A stretch of DNA of 64,000 nt from Opitutales bacterium (GTDB lineage Bacteria; Verrucomicrobiota; Verrucomicrobiia; Opitutales; Intestinicryptomonadaceae): assembly GCA_015061945.1 (NCBI GenBank), contig SUVP01000004.1, positions 244,094 through 308,093 on the forward strand, in the 5' to 3' direction. Numbering within the stretch: the first letter of the stretch is position 1; each line of letters starts with the position of its first letter. This document shows, piece by piece, positions 51,828 through 64,000 of this stretch. Below the pieces are notes generated by a model. That model was not told the origin of the DNA and searched no databases. It saw only the letters and a list, made by a program, of their open reading frames with translations. Both the position numbers and the translations under genes were made by a program.

Positions 51828-52673
51828 ATGAAGTTCATAAAACTAATCACATTTGTATTACTCGCATTTTCAGCGACAATTTTATCGGCACAACAAGTGT
51901 CGATTCCGTCAAACATCAAAGCGATAACAACACAAAGTGCATCGATGAATAAAGATGTTAACGTGTTTGTTGTCCTCCCCGAAGATTACGACAAAAATAA
52001 AGAAACACGCTACCCTGTAATTTATCTTTTGCACGGCTTTGGTGGTAATCACACAACTTGGGCAGTTAAAACAAAGCCAAATTTGGACAGACTCGCAACA
52101 AAACATCAAGTAATCTTTGTCTGTCCAGACGGTTCTACAAGCTGGTATTGGGACGCTCCAAATAATCCAGCATTCAAATACGAAACTTTTGTTTCTAAAG
52201 AATTGATTGAGTTTATCGACAAAAACTATCGCACAATCGCAACAAAACAATCTCGTGCTATCACTGGCTTTAGTATGGGCGGGCATGGTAGTCTTTGGCT
52301 TGCTTTTAGACACACAGATGTATTCGGCTCATGTGGTTCGATGAGTGGTGCTGTTGATATCCGTATATTTCCATTTGGATGGAAAATACCAGAATTACTC
52401 GGCGACTATGCAAACAATGAAGATACTTGGGACAAACACATGGTTATAAACCAACTCCACAAACTTAATCCACAAAACATGCCGTCTATTATCATCGATT
52501 GTGGGACAAAAGACTTCCTGTACAATGTCAATCAAGCCCTTCATAAAAAGATGCTTTATATGAGAATTCCACACGAGTACATCACTCGACCAGGAGGACA
52601 TACCCATGCCTACTGGAATAACGCTGTTGACTCTCATATCGCATTTTTCCTAAAACGCTTTGCACAAAAATAA
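51828..52673 (+). CDS. Secreted CE1-like esterase, paralog 3
   Basis: 281 residues. Signal MKFIKLITFVLLAFSATILSA. Nearly identical to paralog 4 in the first 130 residues (only a few changes), then the two differ around the active site: here TKQSRAITGFSMGGHGSLWL, RHTDVFG and IRIFPFGWKIPELLG. Catalytic motifs GFSMGG, DCGTKDFLY and PGGHTHAYW are intact. Confidence 0.88.
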   Translation: MKFIKLITFVLLAFSATILSAQQVSIPSNIKAITTQSASMNKDVNVFVVLPEDYDKNKETRYPVIYLLHGFGGNHTTWAVKTKPNLDRLATKHQVIFVCPDGSTSWYWDAPNNPAFKYETFVSKELIEFIDKNYRTIATKQSRAITGFSMGGHGSLWLAFRHTDVFGSCGSMSGAVDIRIFPFGWKIPELLGDYANNEDTWDKHMVINQLHKLNPQNMPSIIIDCGTKDFLYNVNQALHKKMLYMRIPHEYITRPGGHTHAYWNNAVDSHIAFFLKRFAQK

Positions 52674-52693
52674 TCCTTTAAATTGATAGAAAA

Positions 52694-53539
52694 ATGAAGC
52701 TCATAAAACTAATTACATTCGCATTAGCCGTATTTTCGGCGACAATTTTGTCGGCACAACAAGTGTCGATTCCGTCAAACATCAAAGCAATAACAGCGCA
52801 AAGTACATCGATGAATAAAGATGTTAACGTGTTTGTTGTCCTCCCCGAAGATTACGACAAAAATAAAGAAACACGCTACCCTGTAATTTATCTTTTGCAC
52901 GGCTTTGGCGGTAATCACACAACTTGGGCGGTTAAAACAAAACCAAATTTGGACAGACTCGCAACAAAACATCAAGTAATCTTTGTCTGCCCAGACGGTT
53001 CTACAAGCTGGTATTGGGACGCTCCAAATAATCCAGCATTTAAATACGAAACCTTTGTATCAAAAGAACTCATTGAATATATCGATAAAAATTATCGCAC
53101 TATCGCAAACAAAAACGGCAGAGCAATCACTGGTTTCAGCATGGGTGGGCACGGCGGACTTTGGCTCGGCTTCCGCCATCCAGATGTATTCGGCTCGTGC
53201 GGATCAATGAGTGGCGGTGTAGATATTCGCCCATTCCCACTCAGCTGGAAAATGGCAGAATCGCTCGGCGACTATGCGTCAAACGAAAGCGTATGGGATT
53301 CACACACAGTCATAAACCAGCTCCACAAACTTCATCCTAAAAATATGCCCTCAATTATTATCGATTGTGGAACAAGCGACTTCTTTTTTGAAGTAAACGA
53401 AGCCCTCCATAAAAAGATGCTTTATATGAGAATTCCACACGAATATATTACTCGCCCAGGGGCTCACACACACAAATATTGGAACAATGCAGTTGACACA
53501 CAAATCGCATTTTTCCTAAAACGATTTCAAAGAAATTAA
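52694..53539 (+). CDS. Secreted CE1-like esterase, paralog 4
   Basis: 281 residues. Signal MKLIKLITFALAVFSATILSA. The middle (KELIEYIDKNYRTIANKNGRAITGFSM in pieces) is closer to paralog 2 (TYRTIANKNGRAITGFSM) than to paralog 3, while the first half is that of paralog 3: another mosaic. Asp in DCGTSDFFF and His in PGAHTHKYW. Followed after 22 bp by the GH5-like gene. Confidence 0.88.
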   Translation: MKLIKLITFALAVFSATILSAQQVSIPSNIKAITAQSTSMNKDVNVFVVLPEDYDKNKETRYPVIYLLHGFGGNHTTWAVKTKPNLDRLATKHQVIFVCPDGSTSWYWDAPNNPAFKYETFVSKELIEYIDKNYRTIANKNGRAITGFSMGGHGGLWLGFRHPDVFGSCGSMSGGVDIRPFPLSWKMAESLGDYASNESVWDSHTVINQLHKLHPKNMPSIIIDCGTSDFFFEVNEALHKKMLYMRIPHEYITRPGAHTHKYWNNAVDTQIAFFLKRFQRN

Positions 53540-54719: not shown

Positions 54720-54795
54720 ATTTTTTTACAAAAAAATCGAAAAAAAGTCTTGCCAACGAGTAAAAAATACCTACAAATATGGGGCTTTAAAAATC

Positions 54796-54880
<85 letters not shown>

Positions 54881-55089: not shown

Positions 55090-57045
55090 TCATCTCAAAT
55101 TTGCCAACTTTTTTATGAGTTTAACTTGGTTGGCTTGTGGTTGTTTTGAAATCTCCTCAAGCTTACGAAACGTCAATTGCTTTGTTTGGCGTTCATATCG
55201 AAGTTTGAGAATCAATTCGATTGCACTTGCTGAAAGTCTATCAAGCATTTTGAGCTGTCTACCTATCATTCCGTGTTTGAGGTTTTCTCTTTTGGCTAGC
55301 TCACGAATACTTAATCCTTCATCGTCTAAAAGTCTTTTCATTTTTACAATATCGTGCAAAAAGTGTTGTTTCCTCTTTGTACTTTTGGGTAATGGCTTTT
55401 TATAGCCACTCGAAAGTTCAAATGGAGAAAGAATTTCCCAAATACCGCGGCCTAACGAATTATCTACTGAAAATTCAATTACAATAGGAGTTTGATTTTC
55501 AGTGGGTGGATATATCGTAAGTTGGCAAATTCGCATGTAACCTTTTCGCTTTTTAACGGAAAGAACCATTTTAGAAATCGTCTCTTTGATAATTTCGCTT
55601 TTTTCTTCAGGAGTAAGCATATCCTTGCAGAAATCCAAATTATCAATCGAAGCTTTTATCTGAAAGTCTGAAAGATTAACCTTATTTTTAAAATAAGATA
55701 ATTCTGAATTCACTTCAGAAAGTCTATTTCTCAAAGTCGTTAACTTTTGCGACTTTGCTTTCAGATGCTTTTCTATCGAGGATTTCAAACTGGGGTCATC
55801 GGATAATTCCAAGAATTTTTCCAGCGAAGATTGAACGGCTTTATCCAAGATAGTAATTTCATTGCGAAGCTTTAACTGTTCTTTTTCTAATGACTCTTTA
55901 TACTCTCTATTGGAATCCTTGACTTCTTTCAATGAGACATCTTGCGTTGCCATATACCCGATTGCTGAAAACACAATTTCTTCAACAATCTTCTTAGCGA
56001 TTGCAGTATCACAGCTACATTGACTTCGCTCGTGTTGTTTCCGAGTACATGTATAATATAAATAAGGTGTGCCATCTTTGTGTTTTTTACCGCTACCACC
56101 AACGGTCATGTTGGCACCGCAAGAACAAAACAAAATCTTTTTGAGAAGATAAGGATTTCGCATTCGAACCTCAGGCGGAGCATCAACAGGTTTTTCGACA
56201 GGTGTGTTTAAACGACGTTGAACTTCTTCCCAATCGGAACGTTTTATTATTGATTCATGCCTACCTTCAAACAATTCTTTGTTCCCATTATTATTCCGGA
56301 ATACATACCCGGCATATGTGGGATTTTCAAGAATACGCTTTATTAGAATCTCAGTATAATAGCGACCACGATGAGTTTTACCTGACTTAGAAATCCATTC
56401 TGGCGTCATACCGTGTACAGCGGACATGTGTTTAGCAATGGCTGCAGGCTTTTGACCATCGAGATACATTTTATAAATTTCTTTTATCAAATGTGCATGT
56501 TCTGAAAATTCCAATGACTTTGCTGTTGCCCCTATTTTATAGCCTAACGGGGCGTAACCACCTGCATGATAACCAGCCTTAAGTGATTCACGATACTTAT
56601 CCTTAATCCGCATCGACGTTGTTTCCCGTTCATATTGGGCCGTCGCAATCACAACGCCCTTAGCGAGATTACCAGAAGGATTGTCCTCAAAGTTGATATC
56701 ATTTGTGTAAATCAGATTAACATTGTAGGATTTCAACAATGCTTCAAACTCGTAGAAACTGAGCTTCTCTCGTGATACCCTATCTAATCGATATGATAGA
56801 ACCACACGAATGTCACTCTGTTTTATGCGCTCAATAAGTTGCCGAATTGCTGGACGATTCATGTTTTTAGCGGATCGTCCACGGTCAGCAAAACTCTCTA
56901 CGAGCACATATTCAGGGTGATTGGCAACGTAGTCACGAATTATTTTTTCTTGCACTTCTATGCTCGAAAACTCTTTGTTGGCTTGCATATCTGTCGATAC
57001 ACGAACATAACTAACGCATTTGATTTTACCACCACAAACGGACAT
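55090..57045 (-). CDS. Large serine recombinase (integrase)
   Basis: 651 residues. Resolvase domain with catalytic Ser17 (YVRVSTDMQ) and the Arg motifs YRLDRVSRE, a recombinase domain (about 165-280), a zinc ribbon (Cys307/309, 333, 343/345), a long coiled coil (about 375-465) used for synapsis control, and a late HTH-like piece (GLSIRELAKRENLKHGMIG). It should integrate and excise the element. An AAAGGAGG site stands ahead of the ATG, much stronger than in host genes nearby. The start overlaps a small upstream gene by 20 bp. Confidence 0.93.
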   Translation of the reverse strand: MSVCGGKIKCVSYVRVSTDMQANKEFSSIEVQEKIIRDYVANHPEYVLVESFADRGRSAKNMNRPAIRQLIERIKQSDIRVVLSYRLDRVSREKLSFYEFEALLKSYNVNLIYTNDINFEDNPSGNLAKGVVIATAQYERETTSMRIKDKYRESLKAGYHAGGYAPLGYKIGATAKSLEFSEHAHLIKEIYKMYLDGQKPAAIAKHMSAVHGMTPEWISKSGKTHRGRYYTEILIKRILENPTYAGYVFRNNNGNKELFEGRHESIIKRSDWEEVQRRLNTPVEKPVDAPPEVRMRNPYLLKKILFCSCGANMTVGGSGKKHKDGTPYLYYTCTRKQHERSQCSCDTAIAKKIVEEIVFSAIGYMATQDVSLKEVKDSNREYKESLEKEQLKLRNEITILDKAVQSSLEKFLELSDDPSLKSSIEKHLKAKSQKLTTLRNRLSEVNSELSYFKNKVNLSDFQIKASIDNLDFCKDMLTPEEKSEIIKETISKMVLSVKKRKGYMRICQLTIYPPTENQTPIVIEFSVDNSLGRGIWEILSPFELSSGYKKPLPKSTKRKQHFLHDIVKMKRLLDDEGLSIRELAKRENLKHGMIGRQLKMLDRLSASAIELILKLRYERQTKQLTFRKLEEISKQPQANQVKLIKKLANLR

Positions 57046-57250
57046 AAAAGAAACCTCCTTTCATGCGTTTGATGGCATTACGTTTTGTTCGGCGACAACC
57101 ACAAAGTTTAGATGTTAAACTTTCGTCATCAAGAGTCTGCAATTTATTAGCATGCCGACAGAATGCTTTTAGATATATCTGTTTTATTTTATCCACATTT
57201 GATAGTTTATAATGGATAAAATTTACCGGAGGTTGTGGATCATCTACCAT
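57026..57250 (-). CDS. Small basic protein between relaxase and recombinase
   Basis: 74 residues. AAAGGAGGTG lies at 57257-57266, 8 bp before the ATG at 57250, the best ribosome site in its neighbourhood, so I take the gene as real although short. It overlaps the relaxase end by 11 bp and the recombinase start by 20 bp. The middle (SLTSKLCGCRRTKRNAIKRM) is basic and could be a helix-turn-helix; a recombination directionality factor is possible by position only. Confidence 0.6.
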   Translation of the reverse strand: MVDDPQPPVNFIHYKLSNVDKIKQIYLKAFCRHANKLQTLDDESLTSKLCGCRRTKRNAIKRMKGGFFYVRLWW

Positions 57251-58511
57251 ATCCATCACCTCCTTTATCTTTAGAATGTGTAGATTTATTACGTTTTGAT
57301 AGAGCAGAAATCAGACTTAAAATAAATTGGATAAGTATTTGTAGCATGTTTGAAATTTGGTTGAAATCTCTTTTAGAATAGATCGCTGCTCTTCCAAAAA
57401 CTCGTTCAATCTTCGTTCGATTGTGTATGAAATTTGATTTAAATCTTTTCGAAGTACTTCGAGATTTGTTTGCATACCTTCCAATTGATTTTTCATTTCT
57501 GTCGTTGTCTCTTGAAGTTCTTTGCATTCTGTCTGAAGCTTCGTTATCTCTTTGCGTAATTCTAGATTCGTCTCTTGAAGTTGATCGTATTTCATCTCTG
57601 CTGATGTGCGGATTTCCGCTAACATTTGATCTAACATGTGTAACATATTTATATTGTTTAAGTCTTTTGTCTTCATAATTTAATTCCTTTAAATGTTTAT
57701 ACTTGTCTATTAACTTTCTGTTTCTTTTTTGGTTTTCGGTTTGCCATAACGTTGCCCAATCTTTTTTTTCAGATGCACGATTTTGAAATTTAGCGATATC
57801 ATTCACATTGAAAGATTGTTCGGCAGCTCTACCATAAAATCGTACTTTGGTATCATTTTTTTTGACCGTAAAATATTCCAACCCTTTACGACAAATTGCA
57901 TAACCTTTAGATTCTAATTTGTCTAAAAAATCATTACGATTGTTTATGGTTTTATTCGCAATTCCATCATCTAGGATTTTATTAACTTCCGTTGCAAAAA
58001 CTTTAGTTTTTTGACCTTTAGATTTTGTTGCCAAAAGTCTAAATGACATATCGGAAAAAGGATCTGTAAGCTCTTTATTTTGGCAGTGCAGCATCCTACC
58101 CATGTATTCATGTGCTTTACGGTCACGCCAATCTAAATATGGTGTAAATTGCTTACCATTTGCTATGCAAACACAATAAAAATTAAGTTCATAACTATTA
58201 TCTTTATTGTGGTGGCGAATAAACAAATAATTAAATTGTTCACGATCTAACCCAGGAAAAAACGTTTCCAAAATACACTCTTGTAAGTGTGTTTCGAATT
58301 CTTTTCCGCCGAGTTCATCTAAGGATTTAGGATCGCGATAAACATAAACAAAAGAGGGTTCTTTGAACTTGGCAGCGTCTTTGCGTGCAGTAATTACAAC
58401 CGGCAAAAAACTACCTCCAACAATTTCAGAAGGACGCTCTTGCTTTTTACTATCGACATTACCAAGTAGATATACCAAATCATTGCGAGGAGTAATACGT
58501 TTAGCGAGCAT
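57240..58511 (-). CDS. HEN-type relaxase (ColE1 MbeA-like)
   Basis: 423 residues from the ATG at 58511, which has AGAAGGGGG ahead of it. No classic HxDxxNxHxH motif is present; instead His101, Glu108 and Asn110 in RHHNKDNSYELNF match the HEN triad spacing of ColE1-type relaxases, followed by GKQFTPYLDWRDRKAHEYMG, like the QPYYDRADR block of MbeA. It would nick the transfer origin. The Arg/Ser-rich tail (about 320-400) overlaps a second gene in another frame. MobC ends 11 bp inside its start. Confidence 0.82.
   Translation of the reverse strand: MLAKRITPRNDLVYLLGNVDSKKQERPSEIVGGSFLPVVITARKDAAKFKEPSFVYVYRDPKSLDELGGKEFETHLQECILETFFPGLDREQFNYLFIRHHNKDNSYELNFYCVCIANGKQFTPYLDWRDRKAHEYMGRMLHCQNKELTDPFSDMSFRLLATKSKGQKTKVFATEVNKILDDGIANKTINNRNDFLDKLESKGYAICRKGLEYFTVKKNDTKVRFYGRAAEQSFNVNDIAKFQNRASEKKDWATLWQTENQKRNRKLIDKYKHLKELNYEDKRLKQYKYVTHVRSNVSGNPHISRDEIRSTSRDESRITQRDNEASDRMQRTSRDNDRNEKSIGRYANKSRSTSKRFKSNFIHNRTKIERVFGRAAIYSKRDFNQISNMLQILIQFILSLISALSKRNKSTHSKDKGGDGYGR
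57317..57676 (-). CDS. Nested coiled-coil mobilization protein (MbeB/MbeD-like position)
   Basis: 119 residues encoded wholly inside the relaxase gene in another frame. An AAGGA lies 8 bp before the ATG at 57676. Residues about 20-95 form a continuous heptad coiled coil (LQETNLELRKEITKLQTECK), far from random composition. ColE1 plasmids carry mbeB and mbeD in the same way inside mbeA, so this is very probably a true overlapping gene that helps mobilization. Confidence 0.75.
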   Translation of the reverse strand: MKTKDLNNINMLHMLDQMLAEIRTSAEMKYDQLQETNLELRKEITKLQTECKELQETTTEMKNQLEGMQTNLEVLRKDLNQISYTIERRLNEFLEEQRSILKEISTKFQTCYKYLSNLF

Positions 58512-58989
58512 TTGAACCCCCTTCTGCAATAATATTCAGGTCATAATGAATAGCAATTAGAACGGAGTATATTCGTCCCCAATCAACATGCATTCCAAGT
58601 AGGATTGAACTATTTACATTTTTGGCGATTTGATTTATGTTTATGCCAATTGCATTAATTGTACGAATTAAACAAGGATCTGCGACAAATACTTTCGTTG
58701 TCTTTGGGAAACTATGTGTCTTCTCAAAAACAAGGAATCGCATAAAATCTGATACATTATATCCAGCTTCTTTTGCTTTCTTTTTGATAGTCTTTTTCTC
58801 GGCATCAGTACAACGGATTTTTAAGAATGATTCCCTTTTGTTTTTTACCTTTTTTTGCGTAGCACAAGGGGTGGTTTGAAGGAGGGGCGTTTGCCCCTCC
58901 TCACGAGCTGGCGTGTTGTCACTTTGTGGCCACACGCCTGAGCTCGCCCTAGCCCTGTATCTAATATTACTATTACGAAACGAAAACAT
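58501..58989 (-). CDS. MobC/MbeC-like relaxosome accessory protein
   Basis: 162 residues. The ATG at 58989 has GGAGG 7 bp before it. After a 50-residue lead encoded over the oriT-like inverted repeat comes a ribbon-helix-helix segment (FLKIRCTDAEKKTIKKKAKE, YNVSDFMRFLV) and the MobC signature INAIGININQIAKNVN. It should bind oriT and help the relaxase. It starts on the last base of the gene upstream (TAATG). Confidence 0.82.
   Translation of the reverse strand: MFSFRNSNIRYRARASSGVWPQSDNTPAREEGQTPLLQTTPCATQKKVKNKRESFLKIRCTDAEKKTIKKKAKEAGYNVSDFMRFLVFEKTHSFPKTTKVFVADPCLIRTINAIGININQIAKNVNSSILLGMHVDWGRIYSVLIAIHYDLNIIAEGGSNAR
58880..58946. other. Candidate transfer origin (oriT)
   Basis: Two GC-rich inverted repeats in an AT-rich element. 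The first is GGAGGGGC-gttt-GCCCCTCC (58881-58900). The second has arms CGAGCTGGCGTGT (58904-58916) and ACACGCC-tg-AGCTCG (58932-58946) around a 15-base loop. It lies within the 5' part of mobC and near the relaxase, the usual place of oriT. The nick site cannot be read from sequence alone. Confidence 0.5.
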
Positions 58990-59744
58990 TATTTACCTCC
59001 TTTCGGTGTATCTAATAATGAAATTACAGCTTCAATATTTGCGATGGTAGTAACATCAAATTCAGGGATACTTTTGAGATATTCAACAACGACTTTTAAG
59101 TTGGATTTTTGATCTCTTACTGAACGCTTTGTCGGATTCCATTTTAGTGTGCGTACAATAGGTCTTGATTTCTGCTTCTTTGCAGATATGGCACGCGTGC
59201 CATGATCTTTATTTTTTGCGGTGAAAACAAAATCCTTAACCTCTGATTCAGTTGGATTTTTACCATCATAAAGTTGAGATAATTTACTATTTATTTCTGG
59301 TTCTTCAGCAAATTGAACTAAATGACGGACACAAGAAACTGATGACAACATCAATTTGTTTTTTAGGTTATTGTCATCTATGTGATCTATGAAACAAACA
59401 ACATCACGAGTTTGCTCGTAAGTTCTTCGTGTACAAAAAGGTTGTCCAGAACAAAAATCAGAAATAAATATATCATATTTTATTTCCAGGTTTTTGGGAT
59501 CGTCTCTAAAGTATGCCCAAAGAAGCCTACTTTTGATCAATTGGGTTTTTAGTTGGAAACACGCTATTGTTTTGCGTATTCCAAGTTCAGCGATAGATTT
59601 ATGAATAATCGCATCGCAAATCTCGATCGGATTCTTTGAGACATGGTAAAGGGGTAATTCAAGCTGATTTGAATCACCTGCGTTATTGGTTGATGGCACT
59701 ACTGCCCGATTCGTGCCGTTTGTATGTTCTATGGGATTATCCAT
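58989..59744 (-). CDS. Element protein of unknown function
   Basis: 251 residues, no signal or membrane segment. First of the minus-strand mobilization operon. Helical middle (IAELGIRKTIACFQLKTQLIK, YEQTRDVVCFIDHIDDNN) and a basic stretch (SAKKQKSRPIVRTLKWNPTKRS) suggest DNA binding. Its last codons (PKGGK-stop) encode the AGGAGG ribosome site of mobC. A 16-bp palindrome lies in the gene. It could be a replication, partition or mobilization helper; I recognise no family. Confidence 0.65.
   Translation of the reverse strand: MDNPIEHTNGTNRAVVPSTNNAGDSNQLELPLYHVSKNPIEICDAIIHKSIAELGIRKTIACFQLKTQLIKSRLLWAYFRDDPKNLEIKYDIFISDFCSGQPFCTRRTYEQTRDVVCFIDHIDDNNLKNKLMLSSVSCVRHLVQFAEEPEINSKLSQLYDGKNPTESEVKDFVFTAKNKDHGTRAISAKKQKSRPIVRTLKWNPTKRSVRDQKSNLKVVVEYLKSIPEFDVTTIANIEAVISLLDTPKGGK
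59188..59203. repeat. Perfect 16-bp palindrome, copy 1
   Basis: ATGGCACGCGTGCCAT, inside the 251-residue gene. The core GGCACGCGTGCC is repeated in the intergenic region at 60781-60792. Confidence 0.85.
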
Positions 59745-59863: not shown

Positions 59864-59892
59864 TTGCGATATTAAAATAATTATTATATTAT
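59864..59892 (+). promoter_or_regulatory. Promoter of the 287-residue element gene
   Basis: TTGCGA (59864-59869), exactly 17 bp, TATTAT (59887-59892). The -10 box covers an ATG at 59891, so translation should begin further down at 59912. The rest of 59745-59911 has only short repeats of TTTGCG/TTGC type, perhaps operators. Confidence 0.5.
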
Positions 59893-59911
59893 GTCAAAAA
59901 GAGAGGTATAT

Positions 59912-60775
59912 ATGGCACGTAAAAGATCAGATATCGTAACCAAAAATTGCGAAGCTATTATTCGCAAATCAATATGTCGCAATAAGGTTCTATGTATGGA
60001 ACGGGTAAAAAAATATTTATCAGGAACACCTCTTGCCGAATTGCAATATTACTTAAAAAGGTACAAAAACGAATCTTTCGCGAAATTTATGCGAGGCGTA
60101 TATTTGAAAGGTGTGAACATTAAAAATGTACTTGAATATATTGATGCGTTAATGGAAGCTCTGAACAAGAAATATTATGTTTGGCCACTAAAAATAAATC
60201 ATACTTACGTTGTTGCCATTGAAGGCAAAAATAAATCAATACGCTCTATCTACTATAATGGGACCTGTCTAATAAAATTTGTTCAAACAGCAAAAATAAA
60301 TGAAAAATTTATTCGCAGAATTAGGAATCAAAAGAATGTATACAACTCAATTAATTTTGCGGCAATACTGCTTGATTTGGTGAAGTATTCATATTGGTTA
60401 AAAAAATATACAATTGGATGGATGGAAAAACATTTTCTACTTTTTGCCCCTTCATTTGGAGTGCATTTTCTTAACTTTTTGGAAGAAAATGACATTTCAA
60501 TTTTAGATAAATATATAGGGGCAATATTTGGACTATTAATAACATTCGATTCATATTTAACGAAAGGTTATGTTTCAATACACGCTATAAAACTTACATT
60601 GGCATGTCTTGAACTTGCAGTAGATGACGATCAAATAATAGATGCAATACATATATTTTTGGACTCAGAATTATGTGTGAATTTGAAAAAATCTATTGTC
60701 AATAGCCCTCCAACAAAATTTACAATTGAAGATGTAGAAGATGAATTTCTAAAAAAATGGAATCTTTATAGATAA
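59912..60775 (+). CDS. Element protein of unknown function
   Basis: 287 residues. Start chosen at the ATG 59912, with AGAGAGG 5 bp before it; an upstream in-frame ATG (59891) overlaps the -10 box. Basic N-terminus (MARKRSDIVTKNC), then mixed helices; hydrophobic segments such as YIGAIFGLLITFDSYL are not clear membrane helices. No family recognised. Divergent from the mobilization operon. May be a regulator or a cargo protein. Confidence 0.6.
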   Translation: MARKRSDIVTKNCEAIIRKSICRNKVLCMERVKKYLSGTPLAELQYYLKRYKNESFAKFMRGVYLKGVNIKNVLEYIDALMEALNKKYYVWPLKINHTYVVAIEGKNKSIRSIYYNGTCLIKFVQTAKINEKFIRRIRNQKNVYNSINFAAILLDLVKYSYWLKKYTIGWMEKHFLLFAPSFGVHFLNFLEENDISILDKYIGAIFGLLITFDSYLTKGYVSIHAIKLTLACLELAVDDDQIIDAIHIFLDSELCVNLKKSIVNSPPTKFTIEDVEDEFLKKWNLYR

Positions 60776-60778
60776 TTA

Positions 60779-60794
60779 TTGGCACGCGTGCCAA
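60779..60794. repeat. Perfect 16-bp palindrome, copy 2
   Basis: TTGGCACGCGTGCCAA, directly after the gene that ends at 60775. Shares the 12-bp core with copy 1. The remaining gap up to 60908 has a TATAAT (60893-60898) that could drive the next operon. Confidence 0.85.
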
Positions 60795-60908
60795 GTCATA
60801 AAAACAATAACTAAAAAAATGGAAATTATAAATTTACCATTCATATTTTTCAATTACTCTTTACAAGTTAACATAATTTGTTTTAATCTGTCTTATAATA
60901 GGATGTAA

Positions 60909-61484
60909 ATGTGGTACAAGGATGAATATTTTAGGCGAAACATGCTTCTGTGCATGACTTCAGTAATGTTAACTCTTTTAACACTTACTGCATTTTTGGT
61001 GCTTTTTAAGCCAAAAATTGAATCAATTTATGGACATCATTACGTTGTTATTGCAGAAGATCCTATGTCAATATCTCAAAAAGATGAACAATATATTTCA
61101 TATCTTTTAAATAGAAATAGAATTATTCCGATTTCAACAGTTTATGAGAATACGCTAGCATATTATGATAGTATCATTACAATTTTGTTGGGGCTATTTG
61201 GATTGTTTGCACTTTTGTCATATTTTTCATTTAAAAGAAAAATAAAAGAAGACCTCGACGAACATTTTGAGACCTATAAATCTGATATGAATGAACATCT
61301 TTATAATAAATTTACTGAAGAAATAACAGGTGGGAATGTCGATCTTGAAGATTATATAAAACATATTGTATCAGAAGAAGTTAAGAGGCAGTGGGAACTA
61401 AAGGAAAATGAAACTTCTGATATAATAAGAGAACAATTAACATCTGAAATAAAAACAGACGATATTAAATCAAATGGCAACTAA
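60909..61484 (+). CDS. Two-TM membrane protein with cytoplasmic helical tail
   Basis: 191 residues. Membrane helices at about 12-34 (LLCMTSVMLTLLTLTAFLVLF) and 87-108 (IITILLGLFGLFALLSYFSF) enclose a small outer loop; the last 80 residues are charged and helical. First gene of a tight operon: its last 11 bp overlap the ImmA/IrrE gene. No family recognised. In such a setting it could be a membrane sensor or pore-type effector held back by its partners; that is inference. Confidence 0.7.
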   Translation: MWYKDEYFRRNMLLCMTSVMLTLLTLTAFLVLFKPKIESIYGHHYVVIAEDPMSISQKDEQYISYLLNRNRIIPISTVYENTLAYYDSIITILLGLFGLFALLSYFSFKRKIKEDLDEHFETYKSDMNEHLYNKFTEEITGGNVDLEDYIKHIVSEEVKRQWELKENETSDIIREQLTSEIKTDDIKSNGN

Positions 61485-62049
61485 TTTAAAAAATATAGAA
61501 AATTTTTTTGAAGAGAACATTAATATTACGGTTCCTGCGTCGACAAATGTATCTTTATATCCAAAAACTCCAGATGAAATTATCAAAAAGGCAAAAGATC
61601 TTGGCATCGGAATTTTTCCTTTGGACATATATTGCGTTATAAAGAAAATCTTTTCTATTAAAATATACGAAACAGATATCGGTAAAGACGTTTCAGGCTT
61701 TTTAGAAAAAATAGGAAATACATGGGCAATTTATGTAAATCGTAATGAAAGCGAATATAGAAAACGTTTTACGCTCGCTCACGAATTAGGACATTATATT
61801 CTTCATAGAGAAATTCCAAATAATTCTTTGGCATTCCGAGATCAGATTTTTTTTAGAGATGAAAACACGTCTCCCCAAGAAAAAGAAGCAAATAAGTTTG
61901 CCGCAAATCTTTTAATGCCTCAAGATGACTTTCTCAAAGCGATAAAAGACGGCGACAATACAATATTGAAATTAGCTGATAAATTTAAACTTTCTACAGC
62001 TGCTGTTCGTTATAGAGCATATCAATTAGGACTTATAAAAAGCTATTAA
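61474..62049 (+). CDS. ImmA/IrrE-family metallo-endopeptidase
   Basis: 191 residues. Zinc motif HELGHYILH at about 107-115, with the third ligand likely the Glu in EKEANKFAANLLMP, the standard ImmA/IrrE pattern. The N-terminus (PDEIIKKAKDLGIGIFPLDI) and the end (LADKFKLSTAAVRYRAYQLGLI, HTH-like) are also typical. Such proteases cut repressors or partner proteins on stress or phage signals. Overlaps the membrane-protein gene by 11 bp and is followed 1 bp later by the beta-family gene. Confidence 0.92.
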   Translation: MATNLKNIENFFEENINITVPASTNVSLYPKTPDEIIKKAKDLGIGIFPLDIYCVIKKIFSIKIYETDIGKDVSGFLEKIGNTWAIYVNRNESEYRKRFTLAHELGHYILHREIPNNSLAFRDQIFFRDENTSPQEKEANKFAANLLMPQDDFLKAIKDGDNTILKLADKFKLSTAAVRYRAYQLGLIKSY

Positions 62050-62050
62050 A

Positions 62051-63181
62051 ATGAATGAATACGTATATTTTCCTGTTTTAAAAACGCGTCCTTCTGAAAT
62101 TAAAGCTTTTTCCTTATTGGATGAGAAAATTAAGGATGCGATTCTACCAATTATAGAATTAACTGGCGCAATTGGATATACACTTCCTAAAACATGTAAA
62201 GATGAGTCAAAGAGAGGTATTAGGGTAAAAGGAAATATAAATAGCAAGATAGAAAAAATTCTATCGTTTATGGAAGATAGACGTTTTATTCTCGATATAA
62301 CAGATGATGATTCGCTTAAATATGATGGATTAAGCTCGAGTAATGGGGGATTATTAGATCCGGCAGATGGATACAAATCTTGGATTTCTTTTTTGACACA
62401 AGATTCCAAATTTAAAGAACTTGTTATTCCTACGATACAATTTGACTCTACTCAGAGAGTAAATGTTGAAAAACAAATAATTTCATTATCCAAAGATTTT
62501 GATACATTATCCATAAAATTACCTTTTGACGCTGGAATGGAGACAATTGAAATGATTGTTTCATGGATTGTTCGCATTATAGGATCCTCTAAGAAGTTGA
62601 TATTAATAATAGATTTTGGATATGCAAAATCATTAGATTTAACATTAGAAAGAATAAAAAATAATTTTAAAAAATCATCGACACTTTCTAACATCAAGGC
62701 AGTCATTCCTGTCTCTTCTAGTTTCCCTAGATTTGTAAACGATGTTGAACGCCCAATAAAAATATCGGAAAACTCTGTTTATGAAACATTGAGTTCAATA
62801 CTATCCTCAAATAATGTTTATATGGGAGATTTTGCATCTCTTCATCCTACAAAATATGAAATGGGTGGAGGTGGTTGGATTCCAAGAATTGATTACATTA
62901 TTACAAATGAAGAAGGGAAACCCATTTTTTACGATTATAAACGCGGTAAAAACAGAAATACAAGTTCAGAATATGTATCAATAGCTCAACAAATAGTTGC
63001 ATCGAGTGACTATAAACCCATAAATGATATTGAAATCGAAGGAATTAAAGAGATTGAACTAAAGGCACAAGATACTTCTACTGGAAAATCTCCTAGTTTC
63101 TGGATCGCAATGCGAGCAAATATATATATGACCCTACAAGTATTATATCTTAAAAAAGATAATCATTTCTTAACTTTGTAA
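62051..63181 (+). CDS. T4-beta-like (beta family) protein
   Basis: 376 residues. YFPVLKTRPSEIKAFSLLDE at the start, IIELTG, FILDITDD, VIPTIQFDST, LIIDFGYAKS and the late GDFASLHPTKYEMGGGGWIPR / ISYAQ-type region (EYVSIAQQIVAS) follow the beta-protein family (PF14350), found in phages and defence islands. Biochemical role unknown. It is coupled to the ImmA/IrrE gene and its 3' end overlaps the convergent sce7726-like gene by 32 bp. Confidence 0.8.
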   Translation: MNEYVYFPVLKTRPSEIKAFSLLDEKIKDAILPIIELTGAIGYTLPKTCKDESKRGIRVKGNINSKIEKILSFMEDRRFILDITDDDSLKYDGLSSSNGGLLDPADGYKSWISFLTQDSKFKELVIPTIQFDSTQRVNVEKQIISLSKDFDTLSIKLPFDAGMETIEMIVSWIVRIIGSSKKLILIIDFGYAKSLDLTLERIKNNFKKSSTLSNIKAVIPVSSSFPRFVNDVERPIKISENSVYETLSSILSSNNVYMGDFASLHPTKYEMGGGGWIPRIDYIITNEEGKPIFYDYKRGKNRNTSSEYVSIAQQIVASSDYKPINDIEIEGIKEIELKAQDTSTGKSPSFWIAMRANIYMTLQVLYLKKDNHFLTL

Positions 63182-63797
63182 TAGTTTTAATATCTTCGAT
63201 TGTTGTATAATTATTTTGGCAATCTCTTAAGAACTGTTGATATGATTTGCCATATCGAGAGATTAGTGACTTTAAGACGTAATTTTGAATTTTTTTAAGT
63301 GATAATTTTCTTATAGCTAGCTTGTCTAGTTCTTCTCGGGTTTGCTTCTTTCTTAATAAGATTTCAAGATCTTTACGCCATAAAAAGGATAACAAAGCTT
63401 CTTTATTTAATCTTATTTTGCTTTTTGGCTTTCTTAATAGTTCTACTTTTTTTTCTTTCTCTATAAACTTTATTATTCCTATAGATTTAGGAAGATTTTT
63501 TACTTCAGATGAATCTATGAATTTTTCAGCTAAAACGAGATAGACTTTATTGAAAACAATAGAATAATCTTGAATCTGTTCAGATAAAGTTTTTAAGGAA
63601 TCCAATTTGCTTTTAACTTCGAATCCAATAAGAGTTTTTTCTTTTATTGCTATTAAATCCGCCCATCTATTTTCTTGTAAAAAAGGGACTTCATTTGCAA
63701 TAAGATCATATCCCCCTTCTTTTAATAAAAAATCAATAAGGGTTGTTTTAATATAATTTGCATCAAACCTTTCTTCTCTCATTTTCGAAAACAACAA
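63150..63797 (-). CDS. sce7726-family, PD-(D/E)XK nuclease-like protein
   Basis: 215 residues. ANEVPFLQENRWADLIAIKE followed by LIGFEVKSKLDSL gives the E-x-D-x-ExK layout of PD-(D/E)XK nucleases; LSEQIQDYSIVFNKVYLVL is typical of the sce7726 family. The C-terminal part is helical and basic. It faces the beta-family gene, overlapping at the 3' ends. Proteins of these two families are often neighbours, as I recall, which points to one functional unit. Confidence 0.78.
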   Translation of the reverse strand: MLFSKMREERFDANYIKTTLIDFLLKEGGYDLIANEVPFLQENRWADLIAIKEKTLIGFEVKSKLDSLKTLSEQIQDYSIVFNKVYLVLAEKFIDSSEVKNLPKSIGIIKFIEKEKKVELLRKPKSKIRLNKEALLSFLWRKDLEILLRKKQTREELDKLAIRKLSLKKIQNYVLKSLISRYGKSYQQFLRDCQNNYTTIEDIKTITKLRNDYLF

Positions 63798-63863
63798 AAA
63801 TACGTAATCAAGCTTGTCTTGTTTTTATTGTTTTGTCGAGTTTATAGTTGAAATGATTTTATG

Positions 63864-64000
63864 TTAAATTTGTTTTCGTTTTATAAAATTATAAAGAGTC
63901 GAACGGCTAACTCCGAATTTTTCTCTGATTTCACGTTTAGAAAAGCCTTGTCGCATTAAAAATTCTATTTCTTTTTCTTTGCCGTTTAGTTTCAGAAAGA
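63864..64000 (-). CDS. Small serine recombinase/resolvase, C-terminal HTH (partial)
   Basis: 45 codons at the right window edge, gene continues beyond. Reads LNGKEKEIEFLMRQGFSKRE then IREKFGVSRSTLYNFIK and stops at 63864. This is the C-terminal helix-turn-helix of Hin/Tn3-type resolvases. It is a second recombinase of the region, different from the large one at 55-57 kb. Confidence 0.8.
   Translation of the reverse strand, partial: FLKLNGKEKEIEFLMRQGFSKREIREKFGVSRSTLYNFIKRKQI

Follow-up and report, generated by a model that had tools for sequence, protein, structure and literature searches.

A recurring four-gene cassette with an ImmA/IrrE protease, a beta-family protein and a sce7726-family protein, related to gop-beta-cII of satellite phage P4, in an Opitutales bacterium

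Several described antiphage systems share parts with a four-gene cassette that we found in a 64,000-nucleotide stretch of DNA from an Opitutales bacterium (contig SUVP01000004.1), hereafter the window. In satellite phage P4, gop and beta lie on the plus strand and are faced from the minus strand by cII, which is annotated as a member of the sce7726 family. A defence system is listed under the name 'gop beta cll' (PMC11291487), and gop-beta-cII is reported to protect against lambda and P1, gop being toxic without beta, the likely antitoxin of Gop (PMC9122126). PD-lambda-2 is described as comprising a HigB-like protein, an XRE-peptidase, and a P4-antitoxin-related protein, the last of which is needed for defence; the XRE-peptidase is itself toxic and is neutralised by the first gene, the beta-related protein being dispensable for this (PMC9519451). 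In RosmerTA of phage Kita, which is reported to block phages, the toxin depolarizes membranes and its antitoxin is of ImmA type (PMC10440598).

The window cassette consists of genes A, B, and C on one strand and gene D facing them (Table 1). A and B overlap by 11 base pairs (bp), B and C are separated by 1 bp, and the 3' ends of C and D overlap by 32 bp. These junctions agree exactly with a first-pass annotation made from the sequence alone, whose two-transmembrane first protein, HELGH zinc motif in B, and E/D/ExK pattern in D were recovered as well. The start codon of D is TTG as listed, with an ATG five codons further in. Profile searches, which the annotation had proposed as a check, place B in Peptidase_M78, C in Beta_protein, and D in sce7726, and each of the three matches PADLOC defence-gene profiles. 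The family scan found no helix-turn-helix family at E<=1 in A, B, C, D, or the open reading frame (ORF) preceding A.

The four genes are one recurring conserved unit. Scans anchored on beta gave 91 loci (29 on viral contigs, 56 in named genomes, P4, Pmp11, three plasmids, and the window, near-copies counted), numbers that are lower bounds because the scans require exact peptide patterns. In 69 of them a B-family ORF lies directly before beta, with a further ORF upstream in the place of A, and D is nearby in 66 of these 69, the exceptions being L021, L036, and L072. Among the rest, 15 are without B, two (L019 and L090) carry B in a truncated or disrupted locus, and in 5 either the region upstream of beta or most of beta itself is not visible. 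Neighbourhoods in which these genes never stay together, which the first-pass annotation had named as the outcome that would speak against a module, are clearly not what related elements contain. The non-redundant set, taken at 85% in C, holds 59 loci: the window, 12 viral contigs, 3 plasmids, 1 unassigned bacterium, and 42 loci from nine phylum-level groups, namely Pseudomonadota (18), Bacteroidota (11), Melainabacteria (3), Elusimicrobiota (3), Planctomycetota (3), and a single locus each from Margulisiibacteriota, Omnitrophota, Campylobacterota, and Bacillota.

Within this set, the A-B junction falls between -50 and +30 bp in 57/59 loci and the B-C junction in 59/59, counting ORFs from their first start. 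D faces C in 52 loci, with overlapping 3' ends in 51 of the 52; otherwise it follows C on the same strand (3 loci), precedes A (1 locus), or is absent (3 loci). D positions vary, yet D is nearby, so it remains linked even when relocated. In two Helicobacter-type loci (L060:3564-6342 and L069:4271-7065), the sce7726 gene has moved ahead of A and is read in the same direction as the others, giving the order D-A-B-C. The distance matrices of A, B, C, and D correlate with r of 0.83-0.91 over 56 loci, and 0/999 permutations were as high, although this correlation ignores shared descent, which alone would yield part of it. A Persicobacter plasmid has all four genes, with a C/D overlap of 33 bp, and among plasmid matches of the window B its B ranks first (37%).

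The linkage figures above start from the beta anchor. In a separate scan anchored on B, of which the best 80 of 299 loci were considered, five loci reach at least 188 bits; two of these end right after B, and the other three (L007, L014, and L019), on contigs already known through beta, carry C and D. Below 188 bits, C occurs in 2/75 loci, L123 and L171, both new and both combining a two-transmembrane ORF with B and C; D is also present at L171, and the contig of L123 ends shortly past C. B-like proteins overall are mostly untied to beta, and the cassette's own B subfamily is tied to it as far as seen. At L129:2717-5960, a transmembrane protein and an ImmA/IrrE gene are followed by a 482-amino-acid (aa) protein without Pfam match in place of beta, then by a facing sce7726 gene; from this locus the beta slot seems exchangeable.

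Gene A is the fastest-changing of the four, with a mean pairwise identity of 19%, compared to 39% for B, 34% for C, and 28% for D (52 loci). The window protein has hydrophobic stretches at residues 13-31 and 88-106 (hydropathy script), and its relatives show two such transmembrane stretches in 53/59 cases, one in 5, and three in 1. The loop between the two helices has a median length of 60 residues. The second helix and its entry are the best-conserved region of A (34%), with Y86, which opens this helix, kept in 58/59 relatives, and the loop reaches only 12% and 21%. A matches no Pfam or NCBIfam family at a meaningful score, and no HigB match was found in it at E<=1 in either collection. It is like Gop in being short, with hydrophobic helices and a hydrophilic tail, and two helices are present in 7/10 Gop-type proteins.

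B matches Peptidase_M78 alone above the Pfam cut-off, over residues 60-182, and H103, E104, H107, and E136 are conserved in 59/59 loci, so that the HExxH motif and the downstream glutamate of M78 metalloproteases are present. The closest solved chain, and the sole structure relative by sequence at E<=0.01, is CapP (7t5t, 5.5e-10). In PADLOC, B matches capP (2.2e-33) and RmrA models (up to 1e-20, covering the protease part only).

C was labelled T4-beta-like in the first-pass annotation, which is wrong, since the beta protein is from satellite phage P4. C matches P4 beta with 23% identity across 96% of its length (2e-12, tblastn), and in PADLOC it matches beta at 4.8e-38, compared to 1.8e-11 for PD-Lambda-2_C. 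It is predicted to fold as an eight-strand triose-phosphate isomerase (TIM) barrel with alternating strands and helices. Residues E36, D82, D188, S224, D260, and D281 lie in or just after predicted strands and are conserved in 54-59 of the 59 loci. As these conserved residues lie at the strand ends of the predicted TIM barrel, C probably binds a small ligand or acts on one, and would serve as the sensor.

D belongs to the sce7726 family (NF033832, 5.8e-31) and matches the PADLOC cll profile (3.2e-32). E36, D47, E60, and K62 are invariant in the 56/56 non-redundant four-gene loci that have D, and also in 17/17 further rows: the 15 loci without B, the B-bearing L019, and L001, where the window's own region is present in a second copy. 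In an AlphaFold2 model (mean predicted local distance difference test score 93.0), these residues lie on strands 32-39, 44-52, and 55-62, and Foldseek matches include XisH (6.3e-4), Bax1 (3.7e-3), and, at 2.6e-2 and weaker, Hjc-type resolvases. Fold and residue placement predict D to be a PD-(D/E)XK nuclease.

We tentatively favour, at somewhat less than an even chance, a reading in which the cassette, a relative of gop-beta-cII, protects by abortive infection, with a membrane toxin held in check until the protease breaks the restraint. In the uninfected cell, the predicted toxin A would be kept inactive by C. Infection would switch on B, which would break the restraint of A by C, and A might then depolarize the inner membrane. 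D, on its own transcript, might add a second line of attack by cutting phage or host DNA; alternatively, it might make a DNA signal that activates B, as single-stranded DNA does for CapP. The first-pass annotation had proposed that the protease may sense or free a membrane effector, with the nuclease-like protein acting on DNA; the membrane part of this is plausible by analogy with RosmerTA, in which an ImmA-type antitoxin has once been reported with a membrane-depolarizing toxin. The layout and phenotype of P4 gop-beta-cII and the need of PD-lambda-2 for its beta-related protein are further parallels to the favoured reading.

Several observations weigh against this reading. None of 36 A proteins matches the PADLOC gop model at 1e-3; in the control, a set with 7 Gop-type proteins, 6/46 matched (best 4.8e-70), and the window A was unmatched. 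A comparison of 53 A rows with 10 Gop-type rows by hhalign gave a probability of 2.7, and A has a long loop where Gop has a tight hairpin. With Gop homology not detectable, the toxicity of A is argued from position and topology only. The matches of C in the PDB are generic barrels with identities of 4-13%, the two best Foldseek TM-scores being 0.31-0.34 by query, and for D only two Foldseek matches reach E 1e-3. Genes flanking the loci are mixed, and in a survey without a control set no enrichment in defence islands was shown. Finally, the ImmA-type protein of RosmerTA is reported as the antitoxin (PMC10440598), and this, together with the roles assigned in PD-lambda-2, makes the roles given here to B and C one choice of several.

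Among the alternatives, the one that survives best follows RosmerTA: A and B would be a toxin-antitoxin pair in which B restrains A, infection inactivates or diverts B, and C and D tune specificity. The RmrA matches of B and the tight A-B junction fit this, as do reports of ImmA-domain proteins as antitoxins beside variable toxins, one of which was shown to depolarize membranes (PMC10440598). However, P4 does without B, and Gop is there probably neutralised by beta (PMC9122126); no helix-turn-helix family, frequent in RmrA-node proteins, was found in B; and the fully conserved protease site of B points to cleavage, so we consider this arrangement possible but rather doubtful.

It is decidedly unlikely that A is instead the sensor, its inter-helix loop feeling infection at the membrane, with B relaying the signal by cleavage and D destroying phage DNA. 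Kiwa-type membrane sensing offers a parallel. The length of the loop, the rapid change of A, and the full nuclease site retained by D agree with such a role, but it is the second helix and its entry that are conserved best, not the loop, and the small membrane protein found in the same place in P4 is reported to be toxic without beta (PMC9122126). More improbable still is that the cassette has no part in defence and serves the mobile element for addiction or control. It is located on mobile elements in several settings, and the first ImmA, found on a conjugative transposon of Bacillus subtilis, permits integrase expression by cleaving a repressor (PMC10440598); nevertheless, the family scan found no helix-turn-helix repressor in the unit, the carriers are very different (a P2-like contig, plasmids, and the window element), and a sister element does without the cassette. 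Chance neighbours with unrelated housekeeping roles are hardly credible, because the same order recurs in nine phylum-level groups and nothing was found in favour.

The cassette travels as exchangeable cargo, as indicated by the variable cargo at a P2-type junction. On the P2-like viral contig L016, it lies between the P2-type tail terminator/completion pair and the baseplate genes, a layout that L009 and L027 share as judged from ORF lengths only. At this tail/baseplate junction, phage 186 has nothing, P2 has the nonessential Orf30, two Yersinia phages have other genes, and ENT90 has annotated opposite-strand ORFs over structural genes and nothing else; the comparison covered 5 phage records, out of 95 with a match or picked by name. 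At three halomonad loci (L054, L057, and L089), the left flank has large ORFs of 525-540 aa, and the flanks of the whole locus set gave matches that include the GMP synthase and IMP dehydrogenase families; guaA/guaB may be the insertion site there.

In the window, the cassette sits in a mobilizable element, as first proposed from the sequence, with a serine recombinase, a NikA-like protein, and a probable relaxase with a weak match to MbeA. A genome of the same genus (G009, contig L110) has a sister element beside a matching tRNA-Leu sequence. The DNA match to L110 begins at 54791, and DNA to the left of the tRNA does not match. In a gapped alignment, window 60680-60962 corresponds to L110 431-193 and window 63828-64000 to L110 170-1. 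The sister element is thus without the 2.9 kilobases holding the four genes, keeping as a remnant the first 54 bp of A. This remnant resembles a deletion scar and not a never-filled site. The G009 contig ends in DNA that shares 97% identity with window 63860-64000. Both assemblies therefore stop at one and the same sequence, and the element is seen as far as this contig end, its right end lying beyond. By eye, window 63860-64000 contains a minus-strand frame resembling the C-terminal helix-turn-helix of a resolvase, and two tandem, near-alike esterase-like proteins of 281 aa lie just left of the element (51828-53539). Among 178 related genomes, beta was found in 2, the genome of the window itself and, as a fragment, one of another family.

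Table 1 Features of the cassette and of its carrier element in the window
Feature	Position	Strand	Remarks
Gene A, two-transmembrane protein, 191 aa	60909..61484	+	predicted membrane toxin/effector, occupies Gop position
Gene B, stand-alone ImmA/IrrE (M78) metalloprotease, 191 aa	61474..62049	+	PF06114 6.5e-28
HELGH zinc motif of B (H103, E104, H107)	61780..61794	+	
Gene C, beta-family protein, 376 aa, predicted TIM barrel	62051..63181	+	Beta_protein 4.8e-39
Gene D, sce7726-family (P4 cII family) protein, 215 aa, predicted PD-(D/E)XK nuclease	63150..63797	-	
Codons of D residues E36, D47, E60-x-K62, predicted nuclease site	63612..63692	-	
294-aa backbone protein, weak AbiEi-like stretch (1.8e-4)	59891..60775	+	51% identical copy in L110
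251-aa backbone protein, no family	58989..59744	-	71% identical copy in L110
NikA-like mobilisation protein	58501..58989	-	PF21983 2.3e-14; 85% in L110
Probable relaxase	57240..58529	-	weak MbeA match 8.3e-11, 41.7 bits vs cut-off 500; no Pfam; 73% in L110
Large serine recombinase	55090..57045	-	PF00239, PF07508, PF13408; 94% in L110
tRNA-Leu beside recombinase, left edge of DNA common with sister element	54796..54880	+	
Stretch without counterpart in G009 sister element	60963..63827	.	gapped alignment, edges approximate

We related the two forms of beta locus by a quick, unrooted tree of 73 beta proteins, 59 from four-gene loci and 14 from loci without B, of which 12 are gop-type and 2 have a repressor-like ORF before beta. 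One change separates the four-gene form from the form without B, with a Shimodaira-Hasegawa-like approximate likelihood ratio support of 91, below the 95 mark, and the four-gene plasmid loci L004 and L036 branch beside the gop group (support 98). Since the root is not placed, the tree is equally compatible with loss of B on the way to P4 and with its gain in the other form. By eye, two loci (L024:5194-7768 and L033:5154-7789) have beta and a facing cII after an ORF resembling an XRE-S24 (LexA/CI-like) repressor; neither gop nor an ImmA gene was seen between that ORF and beta. It is possible, although we would not expect it, that the cassette is the widespread and so far unnamed ancestral beta-family form, with a protease-gated toxin, a TIM-barrel beta restraint sensing a small molecule made during infection, and a nuclease, from which P4 is an offshoot that lost the protease. 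In these scans, the four-gene form is commoner and more widespread than the P4 form.

The nearest known system is P4 gop-beta-cII. Both have a small membrane protein first, a beta protein of the same family, and a facing sce7726/cII gene, in the same order and on the same strands, and the nuclease residues of D are conserved in both forms. P4 has no ImmA/IrrE gene, whereas B stands between A and C in the window, and Gop is a tight helix hairpin of 133 aa, in contrast to the 191 aa and long loop of A, for which homology was undetected. The first-pass annotation was right to see a four-gene unit and missed this nearest relative; as P4 shares beta, the facing sce7726 gene, and the order, the sce7726 gene is no add-on in the cassette. 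A defence-gene finder demanding Gop would not label the cassette gop-beta-cII.

PD-lambda-2 was described correctly in that annotation as a three-gene system with an ImmA/IrrE-type peptidase and a beta-type protein (PMC9519451), and these two likewise stand in one operon here. Its first gene is HigB-like and its XRE domain is fused to the peptidase, features that A and B do not show, and the parts of its description used here mention no sce7726 gene. The annotation also held that the usual helix-turn-helix partner is absent, which stands, and that a membrane protein takes its place, which does not: with the XRE domain being part of the PD-lambda-2 peptidase, A replaces HigB.

RosmerTA (RmrT/RmrA) resembles the cassette in having an ImmA-type protein beside a variable toxin, in one case membrane-depolarizing. 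It is described, in the sections used here, as a toxin-antitoxin pair without mention of beta or sce7726, whereas A and B are followed by C after 1 bp and by the facing D, and an N-terminal helix-turn-helix, frequent in RmrA-node proteins, was not found in B. CapPH differs in its helix-turn-helix (CapH-like) partner, which was not found in the cassette, and it is not known to include anything corresponding to A, C, or D. We did not file the cassette as gop-beta-cII, PD-lambda-2, or RosmerTA, because it departs from each of them in at least one defining feature.

The published accounts of the P4 Gop/beta pair, as far as they are drawn on here, give a phenotype and no mechanism. One handle that the cassette has and P4 lacks is the protease: its site is fully conserved, and one can look for its substrate. 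Two others are common to both, a beta protein with conserved predicted strand-end residues and a nuclease with an invariant site. Through these common parts, it joins gop-beta-cII, PD-lambda-2, and RosmerTA, which are now kept apart.

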